Notes under the pieces: model-generated
What the model saw: the letters and a program-made list of their open reading frames with translations, nothing else
Database searches by the model: none
What the model was told of the DNA's origin: nothing
Source: Anaspis maculata
Taxonomy: Eukaryota > Arthropoda > Insecta > Coleoptera > Scraptiidae
Length of the DNA stretch: 64,000 bases
Reading direction: 5' to 3'
Assembly: GCA_949128115.1 (NCBI GenBank)
Contig: OX421968.1
Span: forward strand, 24,970,377 to 25,034,376
Made by a program: the position numbers and the translations under genes
Shown: positions 1-58,799 of the stretch, one piece after another
Numbering within the stretch: the first letter of the stretch is position 1
How the letters are laid out: each line of letters opens with the position of its first letter

Positions 1-3000
1 CCTGTCCGTCAAGAGGCTTTGACTTGATCGATGAATTTTAAGTAAACATCAAATTATTTTGCCTTAGTCACTATCACGGCGACCGTATTGGTCAGCAGAA
101 ACCTCGGCAGAAACAACTGAAGAATGCCATGTTGCCAAAGTTTGATTTTCAGATAATTTTTCTTCGTTCCGTCTCGCTAAGAGCCCATCATAACGCGACA
201 CTTTGTCCCATGTCGCGCTGAGAACTAATTCTGTACACTCAAAGCGCGACACGGCTCAACGAAAGCAAAACTGTGAATTTGGAATAAAAACGTGATAAAG
301 ATAAATTTTTCATTTTGGATCTATCCAAAAACGATACCACATTAATGTTACCTTTTCTGCATCTACATCGGACATGAAAACTCCGAAATTCTGAATAAAA
401 ACAAATTTTTACTTATTTCTTGTTTGTGAAATGAAATCCAGAGAAACTACCTGTCCGTCAAGAGGCTTTGACTTGATCGGTGAATTTTAAGTAAACATCG
501 AAATATTTTGCCTTAGTCACTATCACGGCGACCGTATTGGTCAGCAGAAACCTCGGCAGAAACAACTGAAGAATGCCATGTTGCCAAAGTTTGATTTTCA
601 GATAATTTTTCTTCATTCCGTCTCGCTAAGAGCCCATCATAACGCGACACTTTGTCCCATGTCGTGCTAAGAACTAATTCTGTACACTCAAAGCGCGACA
701 CGGCTCAACGAAAGCAAAACTGTAAATTTGGAATAAAAACGTGATAAAGATAAGTTTTTCATTTTGGATCTATCCAAAAACGATACCACATTAATGTTAC
801 CTTTTCTACATCTACATCGGACATGAAAACTCCGAAATTCTGAATAAAAACAAATTTTTACTTATTTCTAGTTTGTGAAATGAAATCCAGAGAAACTACC
901 TGTCCGTCAAGAGGCTTTGACTTGATCGATGAATTTTAAGTAAACATCAAATTATTTTGCCTCAGTCACTATCACGGCGACCGTATTGGTCAGCAGAAAC
1001 CTCGGCAGAAACAACTGAAGGAAGCCATGTTGCCAAAGTTTGATTTTCAGATAATTTTTCTTTATTCCGTCTCGCTAAAAGCCCATCATAACGCGACACT
1101 TTGTCCCATGTCGCGCTAAGAACTAATTCTGTACACTCAAAGCGCGACACGGCTCAACGAAAGCAAAACTGTGAATTTGGAATAAGAACGTGATAAAGAT
1201 AAATTTTTCATTTTGGATCTATCCAAAAACGAAACCACAACAATGCTACCTTTTCTGCATCTACATTGGACATGAAAACTCCGAAATTCTGAATAAAAAC
1301 AAATTTTTACTTATTTCTAGTTTGTGAAATGAAATCCAGAGAAACTACCTGTCCGTCAAGAGGCTTTGACTTGATCGATGAATTTTAAGTAAACATCAAA
1401 TTATTTTGCCTCAGTCACTATCACGGCGACCGTATTGGTCAGCAGAAACCTCGGCAGAAACAACTGAAGAAAGCCATGTTGCCAAAGTTTGATTTTCAGG
1501 TAATTATTCTTTATTCCGTCTCGCTAAAAGCCCATCATAACGCGACACTTTGTCCCATGTCGCGCTAAGAACTAATTCTGTACACTCAAAGCGCGACACG
1601 GCTCAACAAAAGCAAAACTGTGAATTTGGAATAAGAACGTGATAAAGATAAATTTTTCATTTTGGATCTATCCAAAAACGATACCACATTAATGTTACCC
1701 TTTTTGCATCTACATTGGACATGAAAACTCCGAAATTCTGAATAAAAACAAATTTTTACTTATTTCTAGTTTGTAAAATGAAATCCTGAGACACTTCCTG
1801 TCCGTCAAGAGGCTTTGACTTGATCGATGAATTTTTAGTAAACATCAAATTATTTTGCTCAAGTCACTATCACGGCGACCGTATTGGTCAGCAGAAACCT
1901 CGGCAGAAACAACTGAAGAATGCCATGTTGCCAAAGTTTGATTTTCAGATAATTTTTCTTCATTCCGTCTCGCTAAGAGCCCATCATAACGCGACACTTT
2001 GTCCCATGTCGTGCTAAGAACTAATTCTGTACACTCAAAGCGCGACACGGCTCAACGAAGGCAAAACTGTGAATTTGGAATAAAAACGTGATAAAGATAA
2101 ATTTTTCATTTTGGATCTATCCAAAAACGATACCACATTAATGTTACCTTTTCTGCATCTACATCGGACATGAAAACTCCGAAATTCTGAATAAAAACAA
2201 ATTTTTACTTATTTCTAGTTTGTGAAATGAAATCCAGAGAAACTACCTGTCCGTCAAGAGGCTTTGACTTGATCGATGAATTTTAAGTAAACATCAAATT
2301 ATTTTGCCTCAGTCACTATCACGGCGACCGTATTGGTCAGCAGAAATTTCGGCAGAAACAACTGAAGAATGCCATGTTGCCAAAGTTTGATTTTCAGATA
2401 ATTTTTCTTTATTCCGTCTCGCTAAGAGCCCATCATAACGCGACACTTTGTCCCATGTCGCGCTAAGAACTAATTCTGTACACTCAAAGCGCGACACGGC
2501 TCAACGAAAGCAAAACTGTAAATTTGGAATAAAAACGTGATAAAGATAAGTTTTTCATTTTGGATCTATCCAAAAACGATACCACATTAATGTTACCTTT
2601 TCTACATCTACATCGGACATGAAAACTCCGAAATTCTGAATAAAAACAAATTTTTACTTATTTCTAGTTTGTGAAATGAAATCCAGAGAAACTACCTGTC
2701 CGTCAAGAGGCTTTGACTTGATCGATGAATTTTAAGTAAACATCAAATTATTTTGCCTTAGTCACTATCACGGCGACCGTATTGGTCAGCAGAAACCTCG
2801 GCAGAAACAACTGAAGAATGCCATGTTGCCAAAGTTTGATTTTCAGATAATTTTTCTTCGTTCCGTCTCGCTAAGAGCCCATCATAACGCGACACTTTGT
2901 CCCATGTCGCGCTGAGAACTAATTCTGTACACTCAAAGCGCGACACGGCTCAACGAAAGCAAAACTGTGAATTTGGAATAAAAACGTGATAAAGATAAAT

Positions 3001-4096
3001 TTTTCATTTTGGATCTATCCAAAAACGATACCACATTAATGTTACCTTTTCTGCATCTACATCGGACATGAAAACTCCGAAATTCTGAATAAAAACAAAT
3101 TTTTACTTATTTCTTGTTTGTGAAATGAAATCCAGAGAAACTACCTGTCCGTCAAGAGGCTTTGACTTGATCGGTGAATTTTAAGTAAACATCGAAATAT
3201 TTTGCCTTAGTCACTATCACGGCGACCGTATTGGTCAGCAGAAACCTCGGCAGAAACAACTGAAGAATGCCATGTTGCCAAAGTTTGATTTTCAGATAAT
3301 TTTTCTTCATTCCGTCTCGCTAAGAGCCCATCATAACGCGACACTTTGTCCCATGTCGTGCTAAGAACTAATTCTGTACACTCAAAGCGCGACACGGCTC
3401 AACGAAAGCAAAACTGTGAATTTGGAATAAGAACGAATTAAAGATAAATTTTTTATTTTGTATCTATCCAAAAACGATACCACATCAATGTTACCCTTTC
3501 TGCATCTTTATTGGACATGAAAACTCCGAAATTCTGAATAAAAACAAATTTTTACTTATTTCTAGTTTGTGAAATGAAATCCAGAAACACTACCTGTCCG
3601 TCAAGAGGCTTTGACTTGATCGATGAATTTTAAGTAAACATCAAATTATTTTGCCTTAGTCACTATCACGGCGACCGTATTGGTCAGCAGAAACCTCGGC
3701 AGAAACAACTGAAGAATGCCATGTTGCCGAAGTTTGATTTCCAGATAATTTTTCTTCATTCCGTCTCGCTAAGAGCCCATCATAACGCGACACTTTGTCC
3801 CATGTCGCGCTAAGAACTAATTCTGTACACTCAAAGCGTGACACGGCTCAACAAGATCAAAACTGTGATTTTGGAATTAAAAAGGTAATAAAGATAATTA
3901 TTTTATTCTGGCTATATCCAAAAACGAAACCACAACAATGCTACCATTCCTGCATCTACATTGGACATGAAAACTCCGAAAATCTGATCAAAACAAATTT
4001 TCACTTATTTCAAATTTGTGAAATGGAATCCATAGACACCACCTGTCCGTCAAGAGGCTTTGACTTGATCGATTAATTTAAAGTTAACATCAAAAT
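1..4096. repeat. 449-bp satellite DNA array, nine full monomers plus part of a tenth
   Basis: A unit starting with CCTGTCCGTCAAGAGG recurs every 449 bp (1, 450, 899 and so on). Copies differ by scattered substitutions, and the array stops where a foldback element is inserted. Each monomer has a CG-rich core with inverted TGTCGCGC / GCGCGACA motifs in otherwise AT-rich sequence. Most monomers hold a 62-codon minus-strand open frame; with no start context or independent support, it is probably a by-product of homogenised sequence. Positions 1 to about 720 match 2695 to about 3414 essentially base for base, a 6-monomer offset. Confidence 0.95.
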
Positions 4097-4097
4097 A

Positions 4098-5085
4098 CAG
4101 GGTGATTTTTTGAAAAGTTTCCACCCCTTGTTTCTCGCCGCCAAAATGTTTTACAGGAAAACGCCGAAACAGGTCAATTTTTGTTTCGAGGGGGTCATCT
4201 AGAGCACATATCACCAAATTTTTCTCTTGAACCCCTTCGCCCCCGCCCCACCCTGCTTTAAAATTTCAAATAGCATGACCTACTTTGTGATACATCAAAT
4301 TGAAGGCAGTAAAATTCTCTTTCCGTTAAACATATTTCAAATTTTTTTAAACCACCCCTCAACCCTTCTGAAAATCCTCTTTTCGTTAATGGAAGGACAA
4401 TGTTCCCCCTATAAACTCTTGATTCCTGAGAAATAGACTTCCCAGCAAAAACAGGTCGATTCTTATTTCAATGGGGTCATCTTAGACACGAGTGGCCAAA
4501 TTTTTATCTTCAACCCCTTCGCCCTCACCCTACCTTACTTTGAAATTTCGAATAGCATTATCTATCTTGTGATACATGAAATTGAAGGCAATAAAACTCT
4601 TTCCGTCAAACATATTTCTATTTTTTTTAAACCACCCCTTTAAAGTAGGGTAGGGTGGGGGCGAAGGGGTTGAAGATAAAAATTTGGCCACTCGTGTCTA
4701 AGATGACCCCATTGAAATAAGAATCGACCTGTTTTTGCTGGGAAGTCTATTTCTCAGGAATCAAGAGTTTATAGGGGGAACATTGTCCTTCCATTAACGA
4801 AAAGAGGATTTTCAGAAGGGTTGAGGGGTGGTTTAAAAAAATTTGAAATATGTTTAACGGAAAGAGAATTTTATTGCCTTCAATTTGATGTATCACAAAG
4901 TAGGTCATGCTATTTGAAATTTTAAAGCAGGGTGGGGCGGGGGCGAAGGGGTTCAAGATAAAAATTTGGTGATATGTGCTCTAGATGACCCCCTCGAAAC
5001 AAAAATTGACCTGTTTCGGCGTTTTCCTGTAAAACATTTTGGCGGCGAGAAACAAGGGGTGGAAACTTTTCAAAAAATCACCCTG
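4098..5085. mobile_element. Foldback DNA element (TA target, CAGGGTGA ends) inserted in the satellite
   Basis: Two 444-bp arms, 4098-4541 and 4642-5085, are near-perfect reverse complements around a 100-bp loop. Outer ends read CAGGGTGATTTTTTG and its complement. A TA lies on each side (4096-4097 and 5086-5087), as for Tc1/mariner-type insertion. The satellite continues on both sides, so the insertion postdates the array. The open frames in the arms are mirror images and are not considered genes. Confidence 0.9.
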
Positions 5086-5290
5086 TATATGGCCTTAAGT
5101 CACTATCACGGCGACCGTATTGGTCAGCAGAAACTACTGAAGAATGCCAAAGTTTGATTTTTATATAATTTTCGTTTATTCCGTCTCGCTAAGAGCCCAT
5201 CATAACGCGACACTACTGTCTCATGCCGCACTAAGAACCATTTCTGTACACTCAAAGCGCGACACTGCTCGATAAGGACAAAACTGATGT
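5086..5290. repeat. Truncated satellite monomer downstream of the foldback
   Basis: The CACTATCACGGCGACCGTAT block and the GCGCGACAC core of the 449-bp satellite resume here with more divergence and a short internal deletion. This is the second half of the interrupted tenth monomer and the edge of the array. From 5290 to 5660 there is unique AT-rich sequence with no gene; 5330-5410 resembles the small MITE at 36584-36762. Confidence 0.8.
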
Positions 5291-5666
5291 TTTCCCGCAC
5301 TTATAACCGTAATTTTAATTCAAGTAGTGATAGGCGTAGAAGCGCTTATTGGCTCTCATGCGCACGAGAGCCAAGAATCGACGTTGTGCTTACGACTTAA
5401 AACCACGGCTGATTAAGGGTGAACTTACTTTTTCACTATTTCTAGAGAATTAGGAAGGTGTGATTGTGTACAAAATAAAAGGTCGGGTTATCTTTCGAAC
5501 TAAATTCTGATTTTGAAATTCATTCATCAAGAATCTGAGAAAGTACACTCGTCTGAATCATTGGTGATACATTTAAATGATCCTCAGAGTGTCAACAACG
5601 GAATAATGTGAAAAATTGTTAAATTGAACAAAGAAAATCATACAAAGTAAATCAGTTAGAAATCTA

Positions 5667-6091
5667 TTAGGAATGGCAATGCTTATTTGTTGCGTTTTTT
5701 CTGTTCTTGACATACGCATACAAAGCTGCACCCGACCGATTTCCAATCCTGCTGGAATGTTTTTGAGCAATTTTCTCGCAGTAACTCATAGTCGGCACCA
5801 ACGGGCCTTTATCATTGAGGTACAAACCGAAGTGTTCTTCCATGAATTGATGTTCCTCCTGGGACCAAGTCCTCCTTCTTTTGACTTTGACCCCAGTAAG
5901 GCTTATTTTGTCTTTCAATTCTTCAATCGTCTTACGCTTAGGGGCTTTAATTGCTGGTTTCCGGAAGGGTGACGGTGTTGCAACCAATGGTCTGTTTGGC
6001 ATGGTAGAAGCCTGAAGTTTTGGAGACATTATCATTCTCGACTTCTTCCTGCGACGTATGAGTTTTGGTGACGGCGTTAAAACTGCGTGCC
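5667..6091 (-). CDS. YR gene, last exon with Myb/SANT-like domain
   Basis: Acceptor ATATTTTTTCAG. The exon encodes a basic linker (LIRRRKKSR, KAPKRKTIEELK) and then RRRTWSQEEHQFMEEHFGLY ... YAYVKNRKN, with the Trp-Glu-Glu start and helical spacing of a Myb/SANT-like DNA-binding unit. Stop codon TAA at 5669-5667. Such a tail is common at the end of animal YR proteins of this type. Confidence 0.75.
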
Positions 6092-9000
6092 CTGAAAAAA
6101 TATTCAAACAGTTAGAACAGCAAAGCAGGGGTTGGTCACAATCAATTTACCTTTTGCAGAAAGTAGAATACTCTTCTCTGGTGTACAAGTCACAAATGAG
6201 TTGTATTTCTTGGGAAACCTTCTCAGTCTTTTCTTCAACTTGGGTGCCCGTGGTTCAGTTAGTGCATCTATTAACAGAATGAAGACATTGATGAAATACT
6301 CAATAAAAAGTTTCTTTTCTTCTGAATACATCAAATTTTGGGACATTTTCAACTCAAGCCGTGGGTTCCACAAAAAAGATAATACGAGATTAGCTGATTC
6401 GCGATTTTGTTTGGCAATTTCTAGCTGAGTGATCAATGAAAATGCTGGTTTATCCCTCAATAATGAAAAGATGATGGGTCTAGTACAGATTTCAGGCATT
6501 TTTTGGGGTTAATCGCCTAGCATTCAGCAGAAAAATGTTCAGTTAATCTGCAATCAGCCTTGATCGCTGATCATCTTTTTTGTGGAACTGACGGTAATTC
6601 ATTCATTAAAACTTAACACAGTGTTTTGGCCTCCTTGCCTTGCTTTTAGGCTAAAAGCTTATTTGGATGTGCGCTTTTAGGGGCTATCCATGTATATATA
6701 TTTAAGTGTTAAAAATTATGTACATGATACAATTACATACAACCGCTCAATTGTAATATGTATTTTTCAAAAATCAAACATGAGCCCCTAAACGCGCACG
6801 TCTAAATGAGCTTGTAGCTCAAAGTGAGATATGAATACGGCTCATAGAGTTAAAATCATGTATCTTATGACGTAAGTTTTGAGGCACGAGCTCCCTGTCC
6901 ATAGTTACTGAGTGTGGGAGCGTGACAGATCATTTTTCCTAACTTACTGTAATACTGTATCAACAAGTCAGGTTTTCTTGTTAAAAGTGACAGATTATGT
7001 TGTGACCGGAGACGATTGCGGAACGAGCGTCTAGCGAGTGGAGCAGCCCCAAGAAGAAAGTATAAGCCATTTCAAACGTGAATATAAATAATATATTTTT
7101 GATATTTCAAATTTTTCCCACATTAACACTTCTAGGGTGAACAACAAGATGCCTGAATTGAAAAATTATCAAGTTTTGCGTTATAGCTTGCAGATCTAAA
7201 ATCTATTCTTCATTAATATATCTCGTTCAAGATGTAAATTTAGTAGGTAATATCCCTTTTTGAGCTGATCGTGAGCGCTTACGTGAAGGCATGAGATGGC
7301 TGTAACATATTTCTCTGAACATTCACTAGACGATGTATTGGGGGAAACCTGAAGCAATCGAATACTTCATCTTTCAAGGTCTCACAATCAACTGAAAATG
7401 TGACACTACGAAAATCACATTAAGAATGGGATACACATACAATTTTGCCGGTAGCTTCTCTACAGTTTGAAACACAAATGTGATCATAGATTGGAGCTTC
7501 ACTGATAAATTCATGAGCACATGCGTTCCAAACTGTGAAAGTTTGAGAAACATTCTTGAATCGGGTAAATATAAAAGTCTACGGAACTTGCCTTCATGGG
7601 GGATGTCTTGTGACAAGGACGGCTCTAACAAGGACGGTTCTGAAACAAAATGCATATGGATGGATGTTATGTTTTACAAAAAAAAAGTCAATTACTTACC
7701 AAGATTTTCCGATAGTAGAGCTCCAAACGCATTCGAAGGAGACTGAAAGACAAGGATATCCACTGGCTGCAAGTCTGTGGATAAATTGTGTGACAGTCGA
7801 TCATGGTTCCGCGTGGAAGGAGATTTGTTACCCGCACCGTTGTCGCTACCCTTTTCGTCCTTATCCGCAACATTGCCGTGATCTCCAACGTCATTGTGAG
7901 CATCGCTGCCGTTATCTGCATCATCGCTGCCGTTACCTTCAACGTTGCCGTTACTTTCAACGTTCCCGTTACCTCCATCGTTGTCCTTATCCACATCGTT
8001 GTCATTCCCTCCATCATCGTCTTCGTCGTCATTTTCACTGTTCACTTCCGGTGTGTCCACTACTGGAATATCAGGGTCTCTCAGCTCAGGCAACATCACT
8101 TCAAGTTCGTTCATTGTCTTTCCTTTAAACTGTGCCATGTCTTTTCCTTGCGAAATCAGCAAGAACTTGGCCAACTTAGTCGCCTGCAAATTAAAATCAG
8201 GCTGCCGATAATGCTTCTGATGAACTTCGATATCATGGCCCATATAATCAGACAACTGGAGCATGTCGTTGTGGTCCAAGCTTAGAATTTGTGCCAAAGT
8301 GGCGATCTGCTTCCGTATGTTTGTTGAACGCAACAGATGTGAATTTGATACTCCACTCTTCTTAGAGAACGATCTTAGAACTTGGGTGCAATCAATGTAT
8401 CCATTTTTTGTTTTAGAACAAAATAAATAAGGATTCTTTTCTGGAATCTTTGCGTCCTTTCTCATTGACATGAAAAGATCCATGAACCTGGAAGAGAACT
8501 GATATGTAACATATATGTATAGATTCTTACGTTAGGAATTTTTCATAAGGGCCTAAAGGTCTTGGCTGTTTGTCACAGTAACAAGTTATTCGGTCTGAAA
8601 TTATTTTTGCCAAACCTGAAATTTCAAATCAAGGGGAGCCTGTGCTGAGGAATTTTGCACTTGCAAGAAAAACGTACCAAGCTTGTTGCACATTCATTTG
8701 AAAATACATGGTAGTTGTAAAATCGTAAAAACTCGGAACATCTTTTGTGTTGAAATTTTGATCTAGGAGAATCAAGAGTCAATTGAGAGATTATATGTGG
8801 GAGGATTCAAAAGGCTATGTTACAGTGACAAATGATTTTGGAACAATTTATTCACATTGCTGTGGTTACAAGAATATAACTTGCTTCAATCTCAATCACA
8901 TCATGAATGATGTGCTATTCACTTTAGGCACCTTCAGGAAATGAATAGGGTTGAAGTTGGATTTAAATAGTAAAGTACGTTGAACCATCATAGTGTGATT

Positions 9001-12000
9001 CTACTTGGCTGGGAGTTTTGCCACGCCCTTGGAAAGGGGAGAGAGAATGAGCTATGAATCCATCCACAATAGGGTTGGATGGATACTATAGCTATTTTCG
9101 ATTTCTAATAACATGCGGCCACTTAGCGGAAATAAAATGAACTAACCACTCCAAGACCTACTCAGACAGTCGATTCCAAAATCGCGGGCGCAAGGTATGA
9201 CCGTTGGGTGAAAAATTATAAGAGCCATCATCGGTAACCTTTCCGATACTAATGATGGTTTTGACAAGCAATTCGATTCCTACTCGGATTCCTGCGATCC
9301 ACATGGTGAGAAGAGAACTTCGGTTTCATCCTGACGATTTTTTTCAGTAATAGGGGGCAAACTCACACCACAACAAAGTCCATCCTGTACTTCACTATTT
9401 ACCTATATTAGAAAGTGATCAGTTGCAAAGTCGGTTTCGAAAGTTACATGTACTATAACGTCTTCTACCGGCCTGTTCCAAAAGGTTATCATGGTGCCTC
9501 TTCGTATATTTTCACTCAATGGTATGACCTAAGTAGCTACATGTGGCGCAATCTCCCACTAACCAAATTTGCAAATAGTCTATTAACAAAGTAAGAAAGC
9601 TATTTGAGTGAAATCAACTTACTTGACTTGCCTTGCGTTGAGAAGAATGGGCAATTTACGATGTTTCTTCCCGAGGATTTCAAATCGGGAAAAATGATCT
9701 GCGTAGCCTCTTTCCAGCGGCGTCATTGTTTCTTTCTGGTCTGGTGTTATTTTCCCTTTTCTCAAATAATCTTTTACATGAATCCTGCTCATTTCTCCCG
9801 ATCTTCTTCTGTTGAAGAGCAGCCATTCCACCATAACGGCCTTTCCCAACAGTGACCAGCTCCTCCAATTGAAACCGTCTTTCATAAGTTTCTCATATTC
9901 TTCTCTGGCGACACTCTCCGCATAGGAAACAAATTTTGCCACGTCAGCTGTGGTGGGAAGTTTTTTGTTCTTATTTAAAATTTGCCGGCTTGTGTTTGCT
10001 CTTGCAGTTTTCCCTATTTGAGAATTGAACTGCTTCTGGTGAATGTACAGAAACGTATTCAGCTTTTGAACTTCCGCGCTGTGTGGAGCTTCCCCATTTT
10101 TGAGACGCTGGACCTCTGCAGAGGTGGCAGCGTGCGCCAGAAGATAATTGAAATGAGGAATGGTGGATGCATGTTTTAGTTGAAAAGCATCACAATCCTC
10201 TTCTCTTCCACAAACCTCGATCACACATCTAATAACTAAATCGTATTTCTCTGGATCAAGGAGATCACTGAATGCTTGGATATTTGGGTCCATTTCCCGA
10301 GCAGTTGTCAACAAATTAGCACCTCTGCGAAGTTGCATTCGGGTGTATGCGAAGTGACGGGTCTCACTTTTATGCTCGAAAGCCTTCGTTCTTGCGTAGT
10401 TCACCAATGTAGAATCACTTCTTGCAATTCTGCCAATTTCGTCATCGCCCAAGCCACTAAGCAGTTCTTGGAGAAGTTGATCATGCATGCTGCCTTTCGA
10501 TGTACTTTTTGCGGCCATCAGTGCTGCGGCTCTTTTGAGGATGTGTTGATGATTTGGTGGTCTTAGTGTGCAATGTCTATCGTGTCGTGCAAAATTTTTG
10601 CACCCGAAAAGGCCACGGCAATTTGGACATTCCACATACTTGTCGACATCACCAGCGTTTCTTGGTTTACGCGCGACCAATCTTTTGAAGGGATCGCAAT
10701 CCCTATTGTAAGCAGAGTCAGAGATCCGTCGTAACTCAACTAAGGCAAGGCGTCGTTGCTTGCTGTTTTTCGCCAACGATAACACTGTCTTCACTTGATC
10801 TTCATCGGGATGCATGACGACAAAATGCCTTGCAATCTGAGTTTTCATGTTCTTGCAAAACATGCAGAAATGCCTCTTGGAACGAGATGTGGTGGTGAAA
10901 CTCGTTTGTTCGAAGGTGTTATGTTGCTCTGCCTCAGTCAATTGCGACGTCACAGGACAAAGGTGCATTCCAACGACTTCAGAGAAAAATTCCTGGCCAT
11001 TTAGTGTTTTGTTGGCGTCAATGCAGTATTTGACATCACACTGCACTTGCAGATGTTCGTCTTGTTTTCTCGTCAGTAGAACATACACACTGACGTTTGA
11101 GGGTGGCGATACTGGAGGGAAGTCAAAAAAGAATTAAAACACGTGAACGTGAAAAACTAGAAAGTGTGTGTTCAACTTACTACATAAATGAGGTCTGCTG
11201 TGTTGCAACTGCGAGACAAATCCAGACAGAACATCGTCGACGGCGAACAATTCAATGATGTAGTTCCCAAAATGAAATGGCTGTGATGTACGAAGCTGTA
11301 CAAAGTCGCGTCTATAAGTGACTGTAGCAACGATTTCAGGTTTAGACCTTAACGTAGAAGAGGTAGATGTCGTTATGGAAGGCGTATCACTGAAGTTCTC
11401 AACGTCGCCGTGACGGGCTAAATTGCTTGCTCTGGTGATTGTTGCCTTACAGTCACTTGAAGAAGGCAAGAAACAACTTCCTTCAGAGGACTGTCTTTGG
11501 ATGGAACCTGCACAATTTTCAATGAATAACTATTAATTGTTGTGAGCAAAAATTTTAACTTAACATTCTTTTAAATTCCAAAAAATACGGTCTCGTTTAA
11601 TAATTGTAATTATAACATGAATAAATTATTAACCAGAGTGATGGCTTATTTTTATGGAATAAAGAAGAATGAAGTTGGTAGAGTTAGTCATGTTAAATAG
11701 CCTTTTCGATTTATTTGGATTGCCCTGATCCAGAGCAATTTGGCGTAACGGCTGAATTTAAATCGACCGAAATAGTATTTTTCGATACAAGAGCGCGTTT
11801 TCAGGCCTGAAGCCGTGTTTGCCATCATGAAGCGTAGCCGAATGCTGCAAAAGAAGCTGGGGGTCTAAAAAAGCACAGCGCTCGTGTATCGAACAACGTT
11901 TTCCGTAATCGTTGCTTAAGGGGTTTCTGATAATATGCGACTAAAAAAGTTGTTGACGGGAATCGGTTTTTTTTTATTTTTTTCGTCAAGTCAAAATTCC

Positions 12001-14407
12001 TCCAAAAAGAAAATGTACGGGCAATGCTATCAAATTTTGAAAATTTTGAAAATTTTTGATTTAAATTTTTCAAAATTCAAAAACATCGACAATGCATCTT
12101 TCCGCAAAAAAGTCGCATGCCAAATTTGAACTTCTATTTTGAAAAATAAACCAAAAATGATTTCTCGTAGACATGAAAAAGTGAATTAGTAGAAATCATT
12201 TTTGGTACCTTTTTTTGAAAATAGAAAGTTCAAATTTGGCATGCGACTTTTTTGAGGAAAGATGCATTGTCGATGCTATCTAGTTTTTAAATTTTTGGAA
12301 ATCAAAATCAAAATTTTCACAAATTTTTGGAAATTTCCAAAATTTGATAGCAATGCTCGTACATTTTTTTCAAGGAGTTTCTACTTGACGAAAAAAATAA
12401 AATTGAACCGATTCTTGTCGACAACTTTTTTAGTCGCATCAGAAACCCCTTAAATTAAATGAAGAGAAAACTCCATTTTTTTGTAAATTTTGACACTACT
12501 CAAGACAAGGCGTCAAGCTATTATGCATTCAGCTTTTATTTGCAACAAAGCAAGCCTTGGAATTCTGTTTTTACGTTTTTTTGAATTAAAAATACCCAGA
12601 CACTTCAGCTATTACAGCTGCCAGTCAGTGTCAGTGTTAATACTCTGTCAGCTATACCCTCGGCTATACCAGCTGATATGAAGCAATGTTGTCTTTCCCC
12701 TTGCCGCTTAATTTTTGTGCTCACATCAGGGTAGGTGCTCACTGTGTTTGATAAAAAAAGCCTGATGTTTCTGACAGTTTCTGATGTCAAAGCAGTTACA
12801 GTTGGTGTGAGATGGATTTTGATCTTTGGATGTGGTTGAAGGAAGATTGGAATAACGTGAGAAAATCTTTTTGAAGATCACCAGATGTGAAAGCTGTTAT
12901 TCTACCTACACACATTTTGTGAAACTCCTTTCTTCAGTACTTTTTGGCTAGCTACCTACAGTGCTCAGTAAAGCTAGCAGTGGAAGGGAAAAATCAATGG
13001 AGATGAAAACGGAGCGAGGACCTAGCTGATGAAAGTCCGTTTCAGACAGGATTGCTGAAAAGAAACTAAGAAGCTTGTTCGATCATGTCGCGAGCTCAAG
13101 TGATGGACAGTCCCTGCCTATCTCCACAAACTTCCGGAGTCCGAAATGTTCCGAGTTCAAGTACCTTGTTTCTAAAAGTACCTACCCTAATAAAAATTAA
13201 TAGGCCAGAGCCATCATTCGTTTCAATTCAAAGGTCTTCACTTTTATTGTTATTGGTAGATGCCAGTACCAGATCGATCTCTATCGACCAAAAGAAACAC
13301 GGCTTTCATGACACAGCTTCCTCCTTGTTAAATACAGCCAAATTTTAAATTTCTCTTCTCACTTTGTATAGCACCGCCTGTGCAACTTCGTTTGTTCCAT
13401 ATGTAGAATGAGGAAGAACTCCTCCACCAGGTTTTCCATTCCACTACGCTTGAAGAATGACAAGCGGTTGATAGTCTATGTCATTCGAACATTTAATCAA
13501 TCAGAAATGAACTTGCAACGCTGTTCTGGATTTTGAAGTAAAGCGATAACCCCAGAAAATAATGCATAACCTAAACTGTGGCATTCCACTGACAGCGCTT
13601 TTACAGAGTGGATTCTGTCAAACTAGGCTCGCCTGCTTTGTTGCAAATAAAAGCTGAATGCATAATAGGTACCTACATAAACTACAAAACTTATATGTTT
13701 ATTGGTTATTTCATTTGTTACTTTTGCGCGTTATGTATCTATGGAACAATGACAAAATAGTATATTACATACCGAGGTAAAACCGAGGACATGCCAGCAT
13801 GTCTGCACCTAAAACGAATATTTTGTGGGGCTCACCGCATTCGAAGTTTGCACTGCATTTTTTTCAAATTCACGGAATGTCAAATTCCATTTTGAAAAAA
13901 TTACCGTCGAAGGACCGTAACCCTGTTGGTTTTGAAAATGGGGCCACACAACACGCAATCTAATCTACTTTCGATATCAGTTGGAATTTTTCAAAACAAA
14001 GAACATCAAAAGCGAGTCGTCCTGCCGGTCTAAACACGGGTGAAAGGCCCTCTCGGGTGACAACGGCTACGAGAAATTTTGAAAATTCGTAACGCTCGAC
14101 TGGAAAATGGTGAAAAATTGCAACTGCAGACTTAATTTGACTTTTTTGACTCAGAATAGAGTTAAATCTTAGAATAAACTTGCCTTCTTCAACATAAGTA
14201 GTCGGGGCTGATGACGGTGTTTCAATTGGACAATAATCCTTGTCGAAGTTCAATCTTTTTGTCACTTCGAGAACTTTCTTTTTCCTGTAAGTTTCATAAC
14301 AGTTGAGAGTTGATTCGCAAGATGAACTCGAAGATGAAGAGGAGGGCAGCTTGCTTTTTGATGCTTCTCTCTCCGCTTCTGCTGTTGGCGATTCGGCTGG
14401 CGTAGTT
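5667..14407 (-). CDS. Zinc-finger tyrosine recombinase-like protein, multi-exon (Crypton-like or domesticated YR family)
   Basis: Joining 14407-14184, 11507-11181, 11111-9623, 8487-7700, 7639-7441, 6479-6151 and 6091-5667 gives one open frame of about 1,259 residues; the starting ATG lies further upstream and was not found. Seen: two zinc-binding motifs (C266, C269, H279, H284; C345, C348, H360, C364), a helical core, box I FNRRRSGE (about 618-620), an IRK arginine at 738, GHD histidine 764 and the HYR tyrosine 773. This is the R, R, H, Y order of tyrosine recombinases; the first His of box II is replaced. An Asp/Asn/Gly-rich tract follows (about 821-880), and the C-terminus is Myb/SANT-like. 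Known: related zinc-finger YR proteins occur across metazoans, many uncharacterised. Inferred: a DNA-binding nuclear protein, either a domesticated Crypton-type recombinase or a still mobile copy. No terminal repeats bounding the gene were found. Confidence 0.75.
6151..6479 (-). CDS. YR gene, penultimate exon (inferred start)
   Basis: The open frame PIIFSLLRDKPAFSLITQL runs to a GTAAAT donor, and joining to the last exon gives the codon GGG. The acceptor CTGTACTAG before ACCC is the only one before an in-frame stop that keeps phase 2. It lacks a strong pyrimidine tract. An in-frame ATG at 6499 means an alternative transcript or separate short gene cannot be excluded. Confidence 0.55.
6651..6818. 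mobile_element. Small MITE in a YR-gene intron
   Basis: Inverted arms of about 35 bp (AAGCTTATTTGGATGTGCGC ... and its complement, with AGGGGCT) enclose about 100 bp of AT-rich sequence. Intron sequence 6480-7440 otherwise shows no second gene. Confidence 0.6.
7441..7639 (-). CDS. YR gene, linker exon (inferred)
   Basis: TTTTGTTTCAG precedes AACCGTCCTTG, and the phase matches the preceding exon (G|AA gives Glu). The frame reads PSLLEPSLSQDIPHEGKF and onward. The best donor is GTATGT at 7440-7435, leaving phase 2, which fits the next exon. The 3' boundary is less certain than the 5' one. Confidence 0.55.
7700..8487 (-). CDS. YR gene, catalytic exon with boxes II and III and acidic tract
   Basis: Acceptor TCTCTTCCAG, donor GTAAGT. 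It encodes LLRSTNIRKQIATLAQIL, then LSDYMGHDIEVHQKHYRQP: the second arginine, the GH histidine and the tyrosine nucleophile of a YR. After the catalytic part comes KGKTMNELE, then about 60 residues rich in Asp, Asn, Gly and Glu, encoded by short degenerate tandem triplets. It ends in phase 1. Confidence 0.85.
8488..9622. other. Intron of the YR gene, no other feature
   Basis: About 1.1 kb of ordinary AT-rich sequence between the box I exon and the catalytic exon. No long ORF, inverted repeat or tandem repeat was recognised. Confidence 0.5.
9623..11111 (-). CDS. YR gene, main exon: zinc fingers, core-binding region and box I
   Basis: Bounded by CTTCCCTCCAG and a GTAAGT donor. It holds two zinc-knuckle-like motifs (HFCMFCKN with HFVVMH; VECPNCRG with ARHDRHC), a long helical region, then WRSWSLLGKAVMVEWLLFN leading to RRRSGE. 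In tyrosine recombinases the box I arginine sits in this place. The downstream strand HFSRFEILGKKHRKLPILL matches the usual beta-sheet after box I. The final codon is split AA|G, and the frame continues into the next exon. Confidence 0.85.
11181..11507 (-). CDS. YR gene, second exon seen
   Basis: Acceptor TTGTGCAG before GTTCCATCC and donor GTAAGT at 11180-11175. The frame is open throughout and joins the large exon in phase 1 with the codon ATA. It encodes a Ser/Thr-rich stretch and then a beta-rich segment around HFGNYIIELFAVDD. No domain was recognised. Confidence 0.7.
11920..12449. mobile_element. Foldback MITE flanked by TTAA
   Basis: Arms start GGGGTTTCTGAT and end with the complement AGAAACCCC. 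Both sides carry TTAA (11916-11919 and 12450-12453). Inverted arms extend about 240 bp each around a short loop. TTAA is the piggyBac target, but the flank also fits a TA target with longer ends. It lies in the large intron of the YR gene. Confidence 0.75.
12519..13667. mobile_element. DNA element with ~45-bp terminal inverted repeats
   Basis: TATTATGCATTCAGCTTTTA at the left is matched by its complement at 13625-13667, including the Gln/Thr-poor AT-rich block around TTTGCAACAAAGCA. The 1.1-kb interior has no long ORF. It sits in the large YR-gene intron. Confidence 0.65.
13795..14125 (+). repeat. Retroelement fragment shared with the 61-kb gag-like region
   Basis: This stretch is similar in reverse-complement orientation to 60830-61210, including the block around GCATGTCTGCACCTAAAA and GATATCGAAAGTAGATT. 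In the sense direction both encode a segment starting MSAPK. It lies directly beside the putative GC donor of the YR gene, inside the intron. Confidence 0.65.
14184..14407 (-). CDS. YR gene, most 5' exon seen (Ser/Glu-rich N-terminal part)
   Basis: The acceptor reads TTCCTTTCTTAG before AACTACGCC. The exon encodes a Ser-rich segment including eight serines in a row, then ETYRKKK and LNFDKDYCP. It ends in AAG followed by GCAAGT, the consensus of a GC-AG intron. Phase 1 matches the next exon and gives codon GGT. The exon opens in phase 2, so an upstream exon with the start codon is required. Nothing in the family clearly supports it, so confidence is moderate. Confidence 0.55.
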
Positions 14408-18780: not shown

Positions 18781-18825
18781 GTATTAGTTTGTTTACAAAG
18801 CATCTAGGGCAAAATTTTGAATCAC

Positions 18826-18965
18826 CAATGTCTCATGTCGCGCTAAGAACCATTTCTGTACACTATGCGCGACACGGCTCGACAAGAGCAAAATTTTGAA
18901 TTTGAACACAGCAAACTGAAAAGTTAATTTTTTCTTTTTGGAAATATCGAAAAACAATAGTTACT
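18826..18965. repeat. Isolated diverged satellite fragment
   Basis: TCATGTCGCGCTAAGAACCATTTCTGTACACT and GCGCGACACGGCTCG match the core of the 449-bp satellite. It is a single partial copy far from the array. Confidence 0.75.
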
Positions 18966-20567
18966 ACAGCTTTTTTAATACTTTTTTTTTCAAATTTTCA
19001 GGGGGGGTCGCGGAGGTAAAATGTAAGAAGCAATAAAAAATAGGAAAAAACGCTTCCTGAATCTGGCCGCCTTTGTGCCATGCACGAGTTGCACGCCCGT
19101 TTAAGACGGCCCTGGATTTTCGCATTCCTGAGTCAACATTGAACATTTCGTTTTGTTCACAAAACATATCTAGGACAAGGGTTGCTAATTATATTGGTAT
19201 GATAAAAACTTCATCCTACCTTTGTTGTCTAGAACAATTATCCTCCTTGGCGGCCATTGATAAGATTTCTAGAACACTCAACACTAGAACACACTTCACA
19301 ATTCCAGAGTACCAGATTGCAGGACCATCGGCCCGCAGCGGTCCTGTCCCTAACCGGAGGAATACCGGAACCGGTGATCGGGTAACCGCCAGCTGCGACC
19401 TGCGATGCTGCGACATAGCGGCTTCGGTCCCACGACCGCCCCCGAGCCCCACTTTTTAAGTAACGGTTCGCCGAAAAACTAACAGGTTTTGATTTTTTGT
19501 AACATCCTCGGTGATCGACGAAATTCGAATGGGTAGGTACCTACAGAGGGCCAGCGTATCATGGGGCCAGCTGCAGCTCTGCACTATTTTCACCAACCAA
19601 GTAAGGACGATAGACTTTGAGGACTGTTGACCAAGAAGGAGGGGCGGATGGAGGCGAGGAAAGGAAAGGAGATCATGAAGTACCACTTCTCGGAAACAAA
19701 AGGCGGTTGGAAGCTCCGTTATTTACGGGAAGCGATATAAAAACTCCATTCCATAAAAAGAGCATGAGGGCATATGGTGTGTATATTGCTATTGAAAAAA
19801 TATACTTAAGCTACCTGGAGAAATGTGGGAGATGCGAAATTCCACATTGGTACTAATTACAGACTATCCCAGCATCTTCATGTGTTCCAGATTCCCACCC
19901 CAACCCCCGCTTGAATGTTCCTCTTCCCACGCCGCACACAGGCGGAATTTCAAAAAATCGTGGACAAAAACCAAAAATAAAAATATTGAGTTGATCAGGA
20001 ACTATCCACTTTAAAATATTCTTGGATAATTTAGCTATAATTATCAGGTACCCTCAGCTTAACAGGTGCAAGGTTAAAAAAGATACAGCGATATGAAGTT
20101 CATGCTGAAAAAAAGCTGTCACCAGTTATCAGTTTTGGACTTTTTCTTACTCGTTTCGAATGGCCCTTGACACATTGCCATGTGAATTTATTCAATCCGA
20201 ATATATGGAGTTTATAGCAGGAGGTCTGTATTACATTTACATATAGATATTTCATTGGAAAATATCCACTGGTCATCCCCAAAAAATAATATTTGAAGTA
20301 GAGTTTTCAATCTTCGAAAAAAGTGAATTTTTGTTTACCTGTAGACAAAAAGTATCCTATCGAGCACGATCGAGCAGCGATTTTTATATTTTTATAAGCC
20401 AAAAGGTATACTGTACATGTTCCAGGCAACACCTTTTGCTATAACTTGCTATATTACGAGAAACTAATTTTTTTGTTGACTTTGGAGTACATAAAATCGC
20501 AAATAACGCACCACTCGAATTTTAACCAAATTTGAAAACTTGGTTCTATTGAACCGCTTCTCCTGTA
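18966..20567. other. No gene recognised; one GC-rich patch
   Basis: Mostly AT-rich unique sequence. A CpG-rich patch at about 19320-19450 contrasts sharply with its surroundings. It contains no convincing ORF, tRNA box or splice structure. Confidence 0.4.
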
Positions 20568-25639: not shown

Positions 25640-27664
25640 TCATTTTCTCGAGCACTTTCTTGACTGAGTTCTTGACGATCGCGATTCCTTGGATTTGCTT
25701 GGCAACACCGGGGTGGTAGCCGGGGGCATCGCTGACTCCTCGACTGACTCGTTTTCAGGTGTATCTGAAAATGTTTCAGAGTCTGTCGAATCACATACAC
25801 TGAAATCATCTTCTGAATCTGACTCTTCAGTCATGGTGCTGGTGTCATCGCTGCTTCGACATCGTTTGGTGATTTTTGGAGGCATATTCTTTGGTTTCTT
25901 CACGCCCTTCTTCCCTTTCTTGTCCTCAAGCTTACTCTTTTTCGAGCTCTTTTTCGATTTCTTGACCGCAGGCATCTTCTTCTCAGTCGTTGGTTTTGTT
26001 TCATTTGCCGGTATATTTTGTTGAACTCTGATGAGCCTGTCGCTACTCAATTTATGTTTTTTTCCAAAGAGCCAGCACAGCGCTGTTTTTTTCACAACCA
26101 TTTGTGTGTCATCTTCGAACTCTACTCTCACAAGATGACTGTTTTTGGCTATTGGAGTTTGGTTCTCTTTACGTCCATGAAATGATTTTGCATGTAATTT
26201 TGTCGAAGTTGAAGTCGGTGCCGAAGTGGAAGGTGATGCGTAATTTTTCAGAAGCAACTTTTCGGATAATTTTTGACTGATAACTTCTAGAGTCTCTTCG
26301 CTCTCTTCATCGGCTTTTTCTTCAGGATCAACTATGGAACTTCCGATGGTCAGATGGTCTTCAACTTCCAAATGAATTATTTGGTCATCCACATCATCGT
26401 GTACTTCATCCTGGAGATCGCTCGCTTCACGTGTCATATCGACATCTGTCTTAAGGGATGAGATGTTCGGGTTAAAACAATACCTTTCACAATTTGTGAA
26501 GCCCATCTGTTCGGCAATAGTTACAGCAGCACTCATCGCTTCCGAAACGATCTCTTGGATAGTGTCATCCGTTATAGGAAAGACGCTCGTTTCTTGTTGA
26601 GATTTGCCGAGTCTTGAAGATTGCTCCCTGGGGAAGCAGAAATCATCTTTTAAATCTGCTTTGACGTCTTGCAAATATTGGAGCTTGTTGAGTCGTTGCA
26701 TAATCTCCAGAAGACTGAAGTTGACGACTGTTGAAAATGTGCTGGTCATGGATCGGGCTGAACGGAATACCTGTTCGCAAGGCTGACTACTCATTAGCCA
26801 TGTCGTGAACATTTCGGGCCGCAGTTTTTCTGGATCTTCTGTAAATCGCTTGATGAGGATGATCAATGCATGTGCATTCAGCTCTATCGAGATATAGGCA
26901 TTGAGACTTATAAAGTTATTAGTCAACGTATAAGTATCCGAATCGGCAATCCAGTTTCTCCATATTCGCAGCAAGAATACGCTCTTCCACAGAATGTACA
27001 CCCTTCTCTTGACATCAAGTTCTTTGTTGAGATATGAATCCAACGTGTCTTTGATGATTTTCACGTACACGACGGTTCCCTTGCTCTCAGGCACTTCTTT
27101 TTCTAGGAGATCTATTACTCTTGCATTGCAAATTTTCTCAACCGCCTTGAAATTCATTTTATCGTCAGCATTCAGATCACTGGGTACCAACAGATGTTTA
27201 TCTTTGGGAAAATGATCAATCAAGTAGTCCAGATGAGAAGCCGAAATGGTGTAATCACCGAATGGCAGAACAATTGCTGGTTTAATCAGTCTTGTCCGTA
27301 ATTTGGTCCCAATGTGCACAGCGTCTTGAACACAAATTAGTGAACATTCTGGAGCACAGAAGAACCACTCCCAAAACATGGACGGATTAGGAGATAACTG
27401 ATTAGTTATTCTCATACTTTTGAGTAACCGTGTGTCTCCATCAGAGGACACACCAAGGATTTGTAACCCGTTTGCATCAGCCATTGTCCTCATTGTTCTC
27501 CAGCGGCGCATCACGTCTTCGGCGGAGAATCTATTATCGGTTCCATACACTCCCAGACAAAATGAGGGACTTTTGTCCTGCAAGCTTTGCGCCATTATTA
27601 CGTATGCGTAGCTCGCTACCTCTTCTTCTTCGAATTGTCGTCGAATCTCGTTGAATGATGTTGC
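25640..27664 (-). CDS. Transposase-like gene, exon 2
   Basis: Acceptor TTTCACTTTAAG before GCAACATCA; the frame continues as EATSFNEIRR without a break. It encodes residues 617-1290: most of the catalytic-like core and the basic C-terminal tail. Stop TGA/TAA region at 25642-25640. Confidence 0.8.
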   Translation of the reverse strand, partial: ATSFNEIRRQFEEEEVASYAYVIMAQSLQDKSPSFCLGVYGTDNRFSAEDVMRRWRTMRTMADANGLQILGVSSDGDTRLLKSMRITNQLSPNPSMFWEWFFCAPECSLICVQDAVHIGTKLRTRLIKPAIVLPFGDYTISASHLDYLIDHFPKDKHLLVPSDLNADDKMNFKAVEKICNARVIDLLEKEVPESKGTVVYVKIIKDTLDSYLNKELDVKRRVYILWKSVFLLRIWRNWIADSDTYTLTNNFISLNAYISIELNAHALIILIKRFTEDPEKLRPEMFTTWLMSSQPCEQVFRSARSMTSTFSTVVNFSLLEIMQRLNKLQYLQDVKADLKDDFCFPREQSSRLGKSQQETSVFPITDDTIQEIVSEAMSAAVTIAEQMGFTNCERYCFNPNISSLKTDVDMTREASDLQDEVHDDVDDQIIHLEVEDHLTIGSSIVDPEEKADEESEETLEVISQKLSEKLLLKNYASPSTSAPTSTSTKLHAKSFHGRKENQTPIAKNSHLVRVEFEDDTQMVVKKTALCWLFGKKHKLSSDRLIRVQQNIPANETKPTTEKKMPAVKKSKKSSKKSKLEDKKGKKGVKKPKNMPPKITKRCRSSDDTSTMTEESDSEDDFSVCDSTDSETFSDTPENESVEESAMPPATTPVLPSKSKESRSSRTQSRKCSRK

Positions 27665-29573
27665 CTTAAAGTGAAATTATTATTAGCATTCGTTTGTAGG
27701 TGCACAAATTAAAAAAAAAACTCACTTCAAAAGCTTCTTGGCTGTTGGGAAGACCATTCGAACCATATGGCAATACAAAGCCTACATTTTTATTGGACTT
27801 CGAACAATATTGGACTCTACCATTGATTTTGGTGGCATCCTCACTTATCCAAATCACAGATGGTAGTTTTCTTTTATCCAAAAAGTGTTTCAGTTCCGGG
27901 AATCTGAGCTCGCCTTCTTCAAATCTATTCAATTTCTCATATTGTCGATTCAGTGTGGTGATTGATGGTAGAGATCCATTCAAATTCGAATAAAGCGTCT
28001 CATACAAAAGTCTTCCTCCTATAAAGAAAAGGTATCCACAAAATTTCTTCAAAGAGTCGTCATATTTGTTGCTTGTGCTCTGTTTATTTTGATTCTGGGT
28101 GGCAGCTTTTTCCAACATTTGCAATAATCCAGATACTTGTTTTTGGTTGTCCTCATTGTTGTCTAAGCCAGCATCTCTGTCAATTAACTCCAGCTCAAAG
28201 CAGTTTTGAAGCACTTTTCTTGTCAATGGTTCGTTATCTGTCAGTATTTTGGCTACCTCTGTTGCAAGAGGAAAGAATTGCGTGATAAATGTTTGGTCCT
28301 GCGGAATTATTGAGAGCTTTCGCTTTCTTCTTTCAAGCTTTGAGACCGAGTTTGAGACCGATTTTGGTTTCGACTTTGGATTGTTCGGTGGTGCGCCAGT
28401 CTTCAGAAGAACGTTTTGCAATACAACAATCGGTTTTTTCTCGATTTTTTCTTGACCAACCAAACTCGGACTTGTACTAGGGCTCGGAAAACTCGGAGAA
28501 AGACTTGCTACAGAACAAGTTCTAGGAGACGTCTCTTGGGATAGAGTAGGCTCAAGACTTGGTTCGTGGTGGGAATGAAGTTCTTCCGGAGGTTCTTCAC
28601 TTTGAGCTCTTGACGTAGACGTCTCAGGAATGTTCGGTGAAACCTTGGGTGAAACGTTCTTTTGGAAATAGTTCAAAATTGAACGTTGAGTTGAACCATC
28701 CTTGGCAGTGCAACCAGAACTCTTGCTAGAACTGCTATCCGCCGTTTCTTTCAGATGTTTCGAGAAATGTTTGAAGAAGTTTCCGCGGCTCCATTTGGGT
28801 GTGTATCCTGCCTTTTGTTTTTCCTTGCTAATTTTGATTTTTGATTCACACATCAAACAAGTCACTCTGCAATGGAGCATCTCATCGCCTCCGATGTAAC
28901 ACTCGACTTCCAAATTTTTCAATCTTGCCAGTATCGAATCTTTGACATCTGACTCCAGCTTTGCAATTTGTTCATGAATTTTGGATTTAAGAAATGTTTT
29001 CATTGCTTTCGTTTCTTCATTGATGTTGATTTCGGCATGAAACTTTATCTCGGTTTTGGATCCAGGAATTGATTTGAGAGTCGATTTAACTGATGAGTTA
29101 CCTGAATCAGTTCCATCAGAAATTTCGGCAGAAATCGTGGATGGAATATCTGACATAGCAGTTGAAGTGGACCCCGAAGTAGACTTAGGGAGAACTTTAC
29201 TCCTTTTTGCATCGCTAAATACTTTCAGGTTCATCTGTCTCTTAGACTGAAGCTTTGATTGAGATTGAGATTTTTTCAAATCTTCACAAAAATTAAAGAG
29301 AGTTTTTCTGTGCCCGGGAATAATTTTGAATCTTCTGGGTTGATTTTTGTATATCCCAACGTATTTAGTCAATTCTTCTTCACTGATGAGTTCAGGAAGT
29401 TCTTCCCGGGCAAAATCTTCTATATGTTGAACATCTTGTTCGTTGAATTTGAGAAGGATTGAGTGATTTATGTAGCCACTTTTACTCAGCAAGTTGAATA
29501 ATTCTTCGGGAAGACGGAATTTCGCGAAGTTTTGAAAATGTTCTCCCTCTTCAAGTTCCGAGCTATCTTCCAT
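25640..29573 (-). CDS. Large transposase-like protein with BED-like zinc finger (two exons)
   Basis: Exons 29573-27726 and 27664-25640, joined over a 61-bp GT-AG intron, give about 1,290 residues. Order: helical N-terminus (1-100, ending IIPGHRKTLFNFCED), Ser/Lys-rich linker, BED-like finger (C239, C242, H269, H273), second linker, then a core with WISEDATKI (D579), GFVLPYGSNGLP, YAYVIMAQSL, GVSSDGDTRLLKS (D691), VQDAVHIGTKLR (D730), NNFISLNAYISIELNAHAL and SSQPCEQVFRSARS (E913). These acidic residues are candidates for a DDE triad. A conserved-looking segment KTALCWLFGKKHKLSSDRL and a Lys/Ser/Glu-rich tail follow. Known: similar proteins occur in insects and cnidarians, mostly unnamed. Inferred: derived from an RNase-H-fold DNA transposase, perhaps P/THAP-like, and possibly domesticated. 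The frame is intact and a TTTTCTTTAG acceptor-like site touches the ATG, so a 5' exon is possible. Confidence 0.8.
27726..29573 (-). CDS. Transposase-like gene, exon 1
   Basis: Encodes residues 1-616 from ATG to a donor GAA|GTGAGT. It carries the N-terminal helical domain, the BED-like zinc finger and the first acidic motif of the core (SEDATKI). Confidence 0.8.
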
Positions 29574-43777: not shown

Positions 43778-44832
43778 CCGTCCGTTTTTTATTTTAGGCT
43801 CCAGCCCGTAGGACCTTTATTATGGGTTTCACACCCAACATATTATATATTTTTGAAATCACAAAAACAAGATCTTTCGACTGATGATATGTCAAATTAT
43901 TTTTGACACATGTAATCTTTTGACAATTGACAGAATAGTACTTGTGATACATCATTTTGAAGCCCATAAAATTCTGAAGAGAACTGTGTTTTCATTTTTG
44001 AAATAGGGTGTCTTTTACAGCTTCTAGGGGTCTGTCAACAGGAAAAAATGTTGAATTTCAGAAATACATAATAAGTAAGTAGGTAAAGCAGGTACCTATT
44101 TTTAATGTTAACTAATGATAAATAATTATTCATCAATCACAATGAAACAAAAAATGTCTTGAAGAAGTTGTTCAAAATGACCGCCTCCTTGTTCCTTGAA
44201 TGAAAGATTCGACGATCAGTGAATTGGAGCTACCGGCCCCAACGCGATGACATCCGAGCTTGCCAGATATGACCCCCCTCGATTTTTTAATGAGCTCACC
44301 TGAAAGATAAGGTGTTTATAGAGTTTCCCAATAATTTGGACGATTTGAAAATCAAATCATTACCATTAGCTGATATAAAAAAATACCTTCTACTTATTAT
44401 TATTATTATTAATGTTATTATTATTATTATTATTGTTGTACTGCACCCAACAGGCAGAAGAGCCCAGTTAAAGGGTGAGGGATACCAGAGACAAATCCGA
44501 GTGTATAAGTATATAAGTGTATCAATAAGTAGCCACTTATTGAGTGGCTACTTCTGTAATTGGCATTTTTTCCTATTGAAAGACCCTTAGAAGCTGCGAA
44601 GACACCATATTTTGAGAATGAAAACACAGTTCTCAGAATTTTATAGGCTTTAAAATGATGTATTACAAGTACTATTCTGTCAATTGTCAAAAAATGACAT
44701 CTGTCAAAAATAATTTGACATATCATCATTCGAAAGATCTTGTTTTTGTGATTTCAAAAATATATAATATATTGGGCGTGAAACCCATAATAAAGGTGGT
44801 ACGGGCTGGGGCCTAAAGTAAAGAACGGACGG
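43778..44832. mobile_element. Foldback element with CCGTCCG ends
   Basis: Arms 43778-44035 and 44577-44832 are inverted. TA on both sides. The loop contains an (ATT)n run at 44395-44435 and no gene. It ends two bases before the TA of the next element (TATA at 44833-44836). Confidence 0.85.
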
Positions 44833-58101: not shown

Positions 58102-58610
58102 TCATCCGCTCAGTTCTCCAGGCAGAGCAAATAGGAACTCGTTATCACTGGGGATGTTGGCCTCAAATCTATGTGAACAGAGGTAGTCCAGAAACGTTTT
58201 TGTCCGACTAGGAATTGACAAACATACATTTCGATCCAATTTTCCTCGGATTGTCAATTTGTAGTACGATTCCCCCGTCGCTTTCTTTTCTTCTGTCAGC
58301 TCCAGGAATAATTCCGGCAGTGCCGTATTGTTTAGAGGTGACAAATTTTGATAATCTCCCAAAAACACATTTTTGGCTTCTCTTGCTTTTTTTCTATTAA
58401 AGGAGACCAAGTATAACAACGAAATCTCTAAAAGTCTTTTCCAGGCGGAGAATGTGAACTTCTTTTTCAAAGTTTCAAATGTTATGGAACCTTCCTGCAA
58501 TAGATAATTTTGGAATATGTCCTCCGAATGGGGCAGAATATTCGTTTCTTTAATCAATTTTTCCCGTCTGACCCCACATAGGTCATTGTGGGCGTCCAGG
58601 TGCGTCAGTT
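58102..58610 (-). pseudogene. Decayed tyrosine-recombinase gene fragment
   Basis: The frame includes LPHSEDIFQNYLLQE, SAWKRLLEISLLYLVSFNR with KKARE in place of the box I RRSGE block, then YYKLTIRGKLDRNVCLSIP and FLDYLCSHRFEAN. It parallels the box I region and following beta-strands of the gene at 5667-14407. An acceptor-like TATTTTTTACAG lies at about 58628, but a stop or frameshift separates it from the ORF. No downstream catalytic exon follows; the Helentron-like element lies about 110 bp beyond. Likely a truncated paralog or a relic of another YR element. Confidence 0.6.
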
Positions 58611-58799
58611 TTTAGCAGGTGCAAAAATTCTTGGACCTGTAAAAAATATTATTATAATGACTGCCGACGGCCACCAAAAAAGATAACAAGAGAACAGCTA
58701 AATCGGAATTTGTTTGATCAATTATTATAGTAGGATAAAAGACAGATGGAAATCTCGGTCTCTAGATTGAATTATTGCCCTACTACAGATTTCAGTAAT

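Follow-up and report, generated by a model that had tools for sequence, protein, structure and literature searches.

An intact-looking zinc-finger tyrosine recombinase gene in the beetle Anaspis maculata, probably an old member of a large animal family of transposases

A split recombinase gene on the minus strand

We analyzed a 64,000-nucleotide stretch of the Anaspis maculata genome (GCA_949128115.1, contig OX421968.1, 24,970,377–25,034,376, forward strand), hereafter the window. Its minus strand carries, at 5667..14407, a gene for a protein with two zinc motifs, a tyrosine recombinase (YR) region and a conserved tail. It is a genuine gene, maintained by selection and related to the DNA-cutting enzymes with which mobile elements move. 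Its product is probably an intact-looking zinc-finger YR from a large animal family, most likely of transposases; the copy in the window looks old and has been kept by selection.

Seven pieces of the minus strand join in phase into 1,259 codons without a stop (Table 1). The six introns of this model all end in an AG acceptor; five have a GT donor and the one after exon 1 has GC. We found no start codon ahead of exon 1. A family profile made from 121 database relatives, with the window protein left out, was run on the 2,226 open reading frame (ORF) pieces of the window and matched exon 3 (E 7e-78), exon 4 (E 1.6e-39) and exon 7 (E 2.5e-5). For a second comparison we used a paralogue at C5:61.31 Mb, in which exons 1 and 5 had no significant match. 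The C5 match of the end of exon 6 is weak alone, but in the paralogue it immediately precedes exon 7. A weak test of codon use, for which three ORFs including exon 3 served as training, placed exons 1 and 4 above random open stretches but not exons 2, 5, 6 and 7. Exon 5 as drawn in the model has neither significant homology nor a codon-use signal and was rejected.

The preliminary description of this DNA had proposed a seven-exon join encoding ~1,260 residues. Its in-phase frame and splice sites hold, and homology backs exons 2, 3, 4 and 7, lends weak support to the end of exon 6 and leaves exons 1 and 5 unsupported. The open join agrees with the proposed length; however, exons 5 and 6 together measure 528 nt, so that exon 4 could splice in phase straight to exon 7, and with no start codon located the length is not established.

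Table 1. Exons of the recombinase gene and related features, in window positions
Feature	Position	Strand	Description
Proposed exon 1	14184..14407	-	In-phase open frame; GC donor; no start codon identified; codon use coding-like by a weak test; unmatched in the C5 paralogue and without homology support
Exon 2	11181..11507	-	C5 paralogue 35% identity over 118 columns, E 8.5e-17
Exon 3	9623..11111	-	Two zinc motifs, core-binding region, box I FNRRRSGE (R620), K665; C5 paralogue 58%
Exon 4	7700..8487	-	Box II LRSTNIRKQ (T735, R738), MGHD...HYR (H764, Y773), then acidic tract; C5 paralogue 84%, 146 aa
Proposed exon 5	7441..7639	-	In-phase open frame alone; no significant homology, no codon-use signal; doubtful
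Exon 6	6151..6479	-	Weak support for the last ~100 nt; C5 paralogue 40% over ~35 columns (last ~32 residues), E 0.42
Exon 7	5667..6091	-	Basic region, tail WSQEEHQF...AALYAYVKNRK, stop; C5 paralogue 45%, E 8e-35
Dispersed repeat	44396..44501		Uninterrupted (ATT)n tail; found again as one of the flanks of the 19.75-kb C1 segment (94.7% over 76 nt, AAT tail included)
Second, diverged family member	58102..58611	-	One open piece around box I; family profile without the window protein E 6.6e-21; BLASTP E 5e-11; ~47 kb from the gene

Recombinase domains and catalytic residues

A database relative of the window protein has the two-domain YR fold. The window protein itself carries the catalytic residues in the order R, K, R, H, Y (R620, K665, R738, H764 and Y773), assigned to the YR boxes by eye. 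We followed these columns in the beetle's own family members (29 rows from 31 inputs, some of them overlapping or duplicate loci) and found R620 in 28/29, K665 in 23/25, R738 in 24/24, H764 in 22/22 and Y773 in 21/21 of the rows. The exceptions include L036 and L038, which have no lysine at the K665 column, and L012, which has a cysteine at R620. The cysteine and histidine columns of the zinc motifs are kept in 118–121 of the 121 database relatives.

The histidine of the box-II motif H-x-x-R is usual, though not universal, in tyrosine recombinases. The window protein has Thr735 instead, and so do nearly all its relatives: the position is threonine in 120 and alanine in one of the 121 database proteins, and threonine (19), glycine (3), alanine (2) or serine (1) in the 25 own-genome rows that cover it. 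A constant threonine in place of this histidine is unusual.

These results bear out the two zinc motifs and the R...R...H...Y tetrad of the preliminary description, the arginine it had placed at R618–620 being R620. That description mentioned neither K665 nor the missing box-II histidine. The fold of a relative, the conserved residues and the purifying selection described below agree with its view of a YR with an intact-looking active site. Its SANT/Myb-like end fared less evenly. The tail is common to the family, but neither the spliced model nor any of 10 relatives has a domain of this kind in Pfam, and the label for the exon 7 tail is a judgement of pattern. Direct sequence comparison was rejected as a demonstration of YR kinship: the query P0001 had no match in the PDB at E 10, the family profile retrieved nine rows, mostly zinc-binding and none a YR, and XerD did not match the profile.

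Purifying selection on the window gene

The window gene is under strong purifying selection. The proportions of synonymous differences from the C5 paralogue (pS) are 0.79 in exon 3, 1.0 in exon 4 and 0.83 in exon 7, at which level they are saturated; the proportions of nonsynonymous differences (pN) are 0.25, 0.08 and 0.34, respectively. The catalytic half is the best-kept part. The paralogue's exon-3 reading has one stop, which appears to belong to a short additional intron.

A large family of unnamed proteins

The P0001 query retrieved 295 database proteins, 120 of them listed. Narrower searches returned fewer: two proteins with the spliced core and one with an alignment of those two. The relatives include unnamed proteins from teleosts, scallop, sea cucumber and frog (for example, P0051 of Danio rerio, P0047 of Pseudophryne corroboree and P0039 of Argopecten irradians). 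They have in common with the window protein the two zinc motifs, the core-binding and catalytic YR regions, a box I of the form FNRRRxGE, the box-II threonine and the GHD...H..YR motif, and several have a similar tail. They differ in being 20–26% identical to window exon 3, and no function is stated for the listed entries. A SET domain stands beside the zinc-finger YR in 18 of the 120 listed entries, six of which are isoforms of one Brienomyrus gene. The SET domain of the listed relative P0024 scored E 1.1e-21.

We found no named family with the zinc-finger YR architecture in the open-licence literature of PubMed Central. The earlier remark that such proteins are little described fits this result, yet the family is large and already in the databases.

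The genome of A. maculata holds at least 93 exon-level family matches at E 0.001 or better (131 candidates, 86 scored). Matches were counted exon by exon, so the genes are fewer than 93; the candidate limit makes 93 a lower bound. One cluster on C9 has 20 matches within 1.4 Mb (23.58–24.98 Mb), all on the minus strand and including the window gene, and further clusters lie on C1, C4, C5 and C7. When own-genome and database members were placed in one tree, poorly supported at several deep nodes, the own-genome sequences formed several deep lineages, one of which (L031, L035) grouped with fish and mollusc proteins. No young sister copy of the window gene was found among the 93 matches: the best other long match is 56% identical over ~426 residues, and short pieces reach 86%.

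Near-identical segments carrying relatives

Relatives of the window gene in this genome appear to have been duplicated or moved recently. We followed three near-identical pairs, on C6/C9 (pair 1), C1/C1 (pair 2) and C7/C1 (pair 3). The copies of pair 2 (C1:8303848–8323657 and C1:19814496–19835400) lie on opposite strands, are 99.76–99.85% identical and differ in length by 1,095 bases, which probably corresponds to one tandem unit. The body of one copy measures 19,754 bases (~19.75 kb). Its YR exons lie at 13.8–17.1 kb, oriented toward the right end, with a RING/CCCH ORF upstream (L048 3838–4353, minus strand). Another ORF of L048 (1717–2094) has a weak CCCH-like match under the cut-off (E 5e-4). 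The copy at C1:8303848–8323657 also carries ~1.1-kb tandem repeats in the left part, together with subterminal repeats in inverted orientation (2081–2309 versus 18815–19085, 75%).

The flanks of the two pair 2 copies do not match each other at E 0.001, and all four borders lie in (AAT)n tracts of 4 to 18 units. A background sample of the window and 17 loci, with pair 2 left out, has 99 of its 176,005 bases in tracts of this kind, and four such borders are therefore unlikely by chance. A dispersed repeat that also has a copy in the window (Table 1) supplies one flank with its tail, so that the (AAT)n tract probably predates the insertion. A third right end of this type, on C9, is 85% identical and abuts a decayed AAT-like tract.

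Pair 3 spans 4.1–4.4 kb at 99% identity. Its flanks also have no match to each other at E 0.001, and inspection of its borders by eye found no target duplication, inverted ends or microsatellite. Pair 1 has well over 10 kb in common at ~99%, with rearranged edges and satellite-like repeats. We sought (AAT)n tracts of at least four units in the window, in pairs 1 and 2 and in 30 loci of 3.2–4.5 kb, and other short border repeats in the C5 paralogue, window positions 1–30000 and pair 3. Among these sequences, of which the short loci seldom reach a border, microsatellite borders occur in pair 2 alone. No element ends were found for the window gene.

Other features of the window

Just downstream of the gene, positions 1–4100 hold a tandem array of nine 449-base units, in which a 300-nt reference stretch is 95–100% alike. 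Diverged pieces of the unit recur at 5094–5293, and a fold-back element with 450-nt arms (99% complementary, 94 nt apart) occupies the edge of the array at 4095–5088. On the minus strand, two adjacent long ORFs of 678 and 635 aa at 25640–29573 have no confident Pfam match and are possibly an unclassified transposon.

An old transposase and its alternatives

The most likely reading of the window gene is that it is old, intact and belongs to a transposase family. Its two zinc fingers and tail would bind specific DNA and so choose the site. If the protein follows the chemistry of the YR family, Tyr773 would attack the DNA one strand at a time, forming a 3'-phosphotyrosine, and the enzyme would excise its element as a circle. 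The element would then be reinserted at a short matching target, which for one lineage may be the (AAT)n microsatellite. Selection could have kept the window copy either because its lineage is still mobile or through host use.

Mobility is visible in relatives and not in the window copy. The strong purifying selection with saturated synonymous sites, the multi-exon structure and the lack of a near-identical copy among the 93 matches would suit domestication, in which an ancient copy of a recombinase has stopped moving and is retained by the host for a cellular job such as DNA binding or programmed recombination. We regard domestication as credible but, on balance, somewhat doubtful: the size, diversity and clustering of the family and the young dispersed copies of other lineages speak against it, as does the retention of the catalytic set, which the six vertebrate DUF3504 genes are reported to have lost (PMC3212892). 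The long segments themselves may be segmental duplications or assembly duplicates, uninformative about YR-driven movement. The rearranged, satellite-rich edges of pair 1, the clustering of much of the family and the restriction of microsatellite borders to one pair all fit this, and microsatellites can also promote rearrangement. This explanation is nevertheless quite unlikely, given the clean borders and unmatched flanks of pairs 2 and 3, the placement of every pair 2 border in so rare a motif and the diverged third right end abutting an AAT-like tract.

Descent from a large endogenous DNA virus is very improbable. Nimaviral YRs combine a zinc-binding domain with a YR, encoded by several exons in two viruses, and insert into crustacean repeats with repeat specificity (PMC10871703), and the RING/CCCH ORF of the 19.75-kb segment would suit a viral origin. 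Against it, P0001 gave one pattern match among IMG/VR viral contigs and no confirmed relative, a weak point because this query finds close relatives only and no search was aimed at virus genes.

YRs are said to be common in bacteria and rarely documented in eukaryotes (PMC10871703), and the Crypton-derived host genes of vertebrates are reported to have lost the active site. A large YR family with zinc fingers, a conserved catalytic set and a young 19.75-kb segment in (AAT)n would make site-specific recombination into simple repeats testable in an animal, and this type of segment could be a vehicle for moving several genes together.

Comparison with known tyrosine recombinase systems

The animal Cryptons (CryptonA, CryptonI) and DUF3504 genes resemble the window family in being YR-bearing DNA elements of eukaryotes or genes that arose from such elements. 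They differ from it by the zinc motifs and conserved exon 7 tail of the window family and its lack of a DUF3504 match. The preliminary description had named Cryptons as the main source of animal YR genes, but kinship with those of the DUF3504 type found no support when we ran the DUF3504 model: PF12012 matched none of 15 family proteins (the spliced model, 10 database relatives and four own-genome ORFs), and the seven DUF3504 places in this genome all lie away from the window gene. Kinship to DUF3504-type Cryptons was accordingly rejected. Animal Cryptons have no reported terminal repeats and are said to have no C-terminal domain after the YR (PMC3212892). Two DUF3504 loci, L003 and L005 (C2:21.9 and 26.1 Mb), are 96.7% identical over 1,327 nt and are possibly young Cryptons.

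CryptonV, a Repbase group whose report is titled as from cnidarians, may offer a likeness by description. Some of its families are said to insert specifically in microsatellites (PMC8869645), and the 19.75-kb segment of one relative of the window gene has (AAT)n borders. Pair 3 has no such borders, and none were found for the window gene. The telomere- and rDNA-specific YRs of endogenous nimaviruses share with the window family the pairing of a C2H2 domain with a YR, a partly multi-exon structure and repeat-specific insertion, the last as far as the 19.75-kb segment suggests it. They differ in being borne by large crustacean viruses and in targeting (TAACC)n or 28S rDNA. They are said to be distinct from Cryptons (PMC10871703). 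A link between nimaviral YRs and the window family is plausible.

The giant Starship elements of fungi are alike in being large elements with a YR gene plus other genes. The captain domain of Starships is DUF3435, for which Pfam gave no match in the 15 family proteins, and the segment found here measures 19.75 kb. We tentatively raise the possibility, unlikely as it now appears, that animals carry a Starship-like superfamily of YR elements. It would have zinc-finger captains with a constant non-histidine residue in box II, move 4–20 kb or more and include at least one (AAT)n-specific lineage with a RING/CCCH gene; the window gene would be one of its captains.
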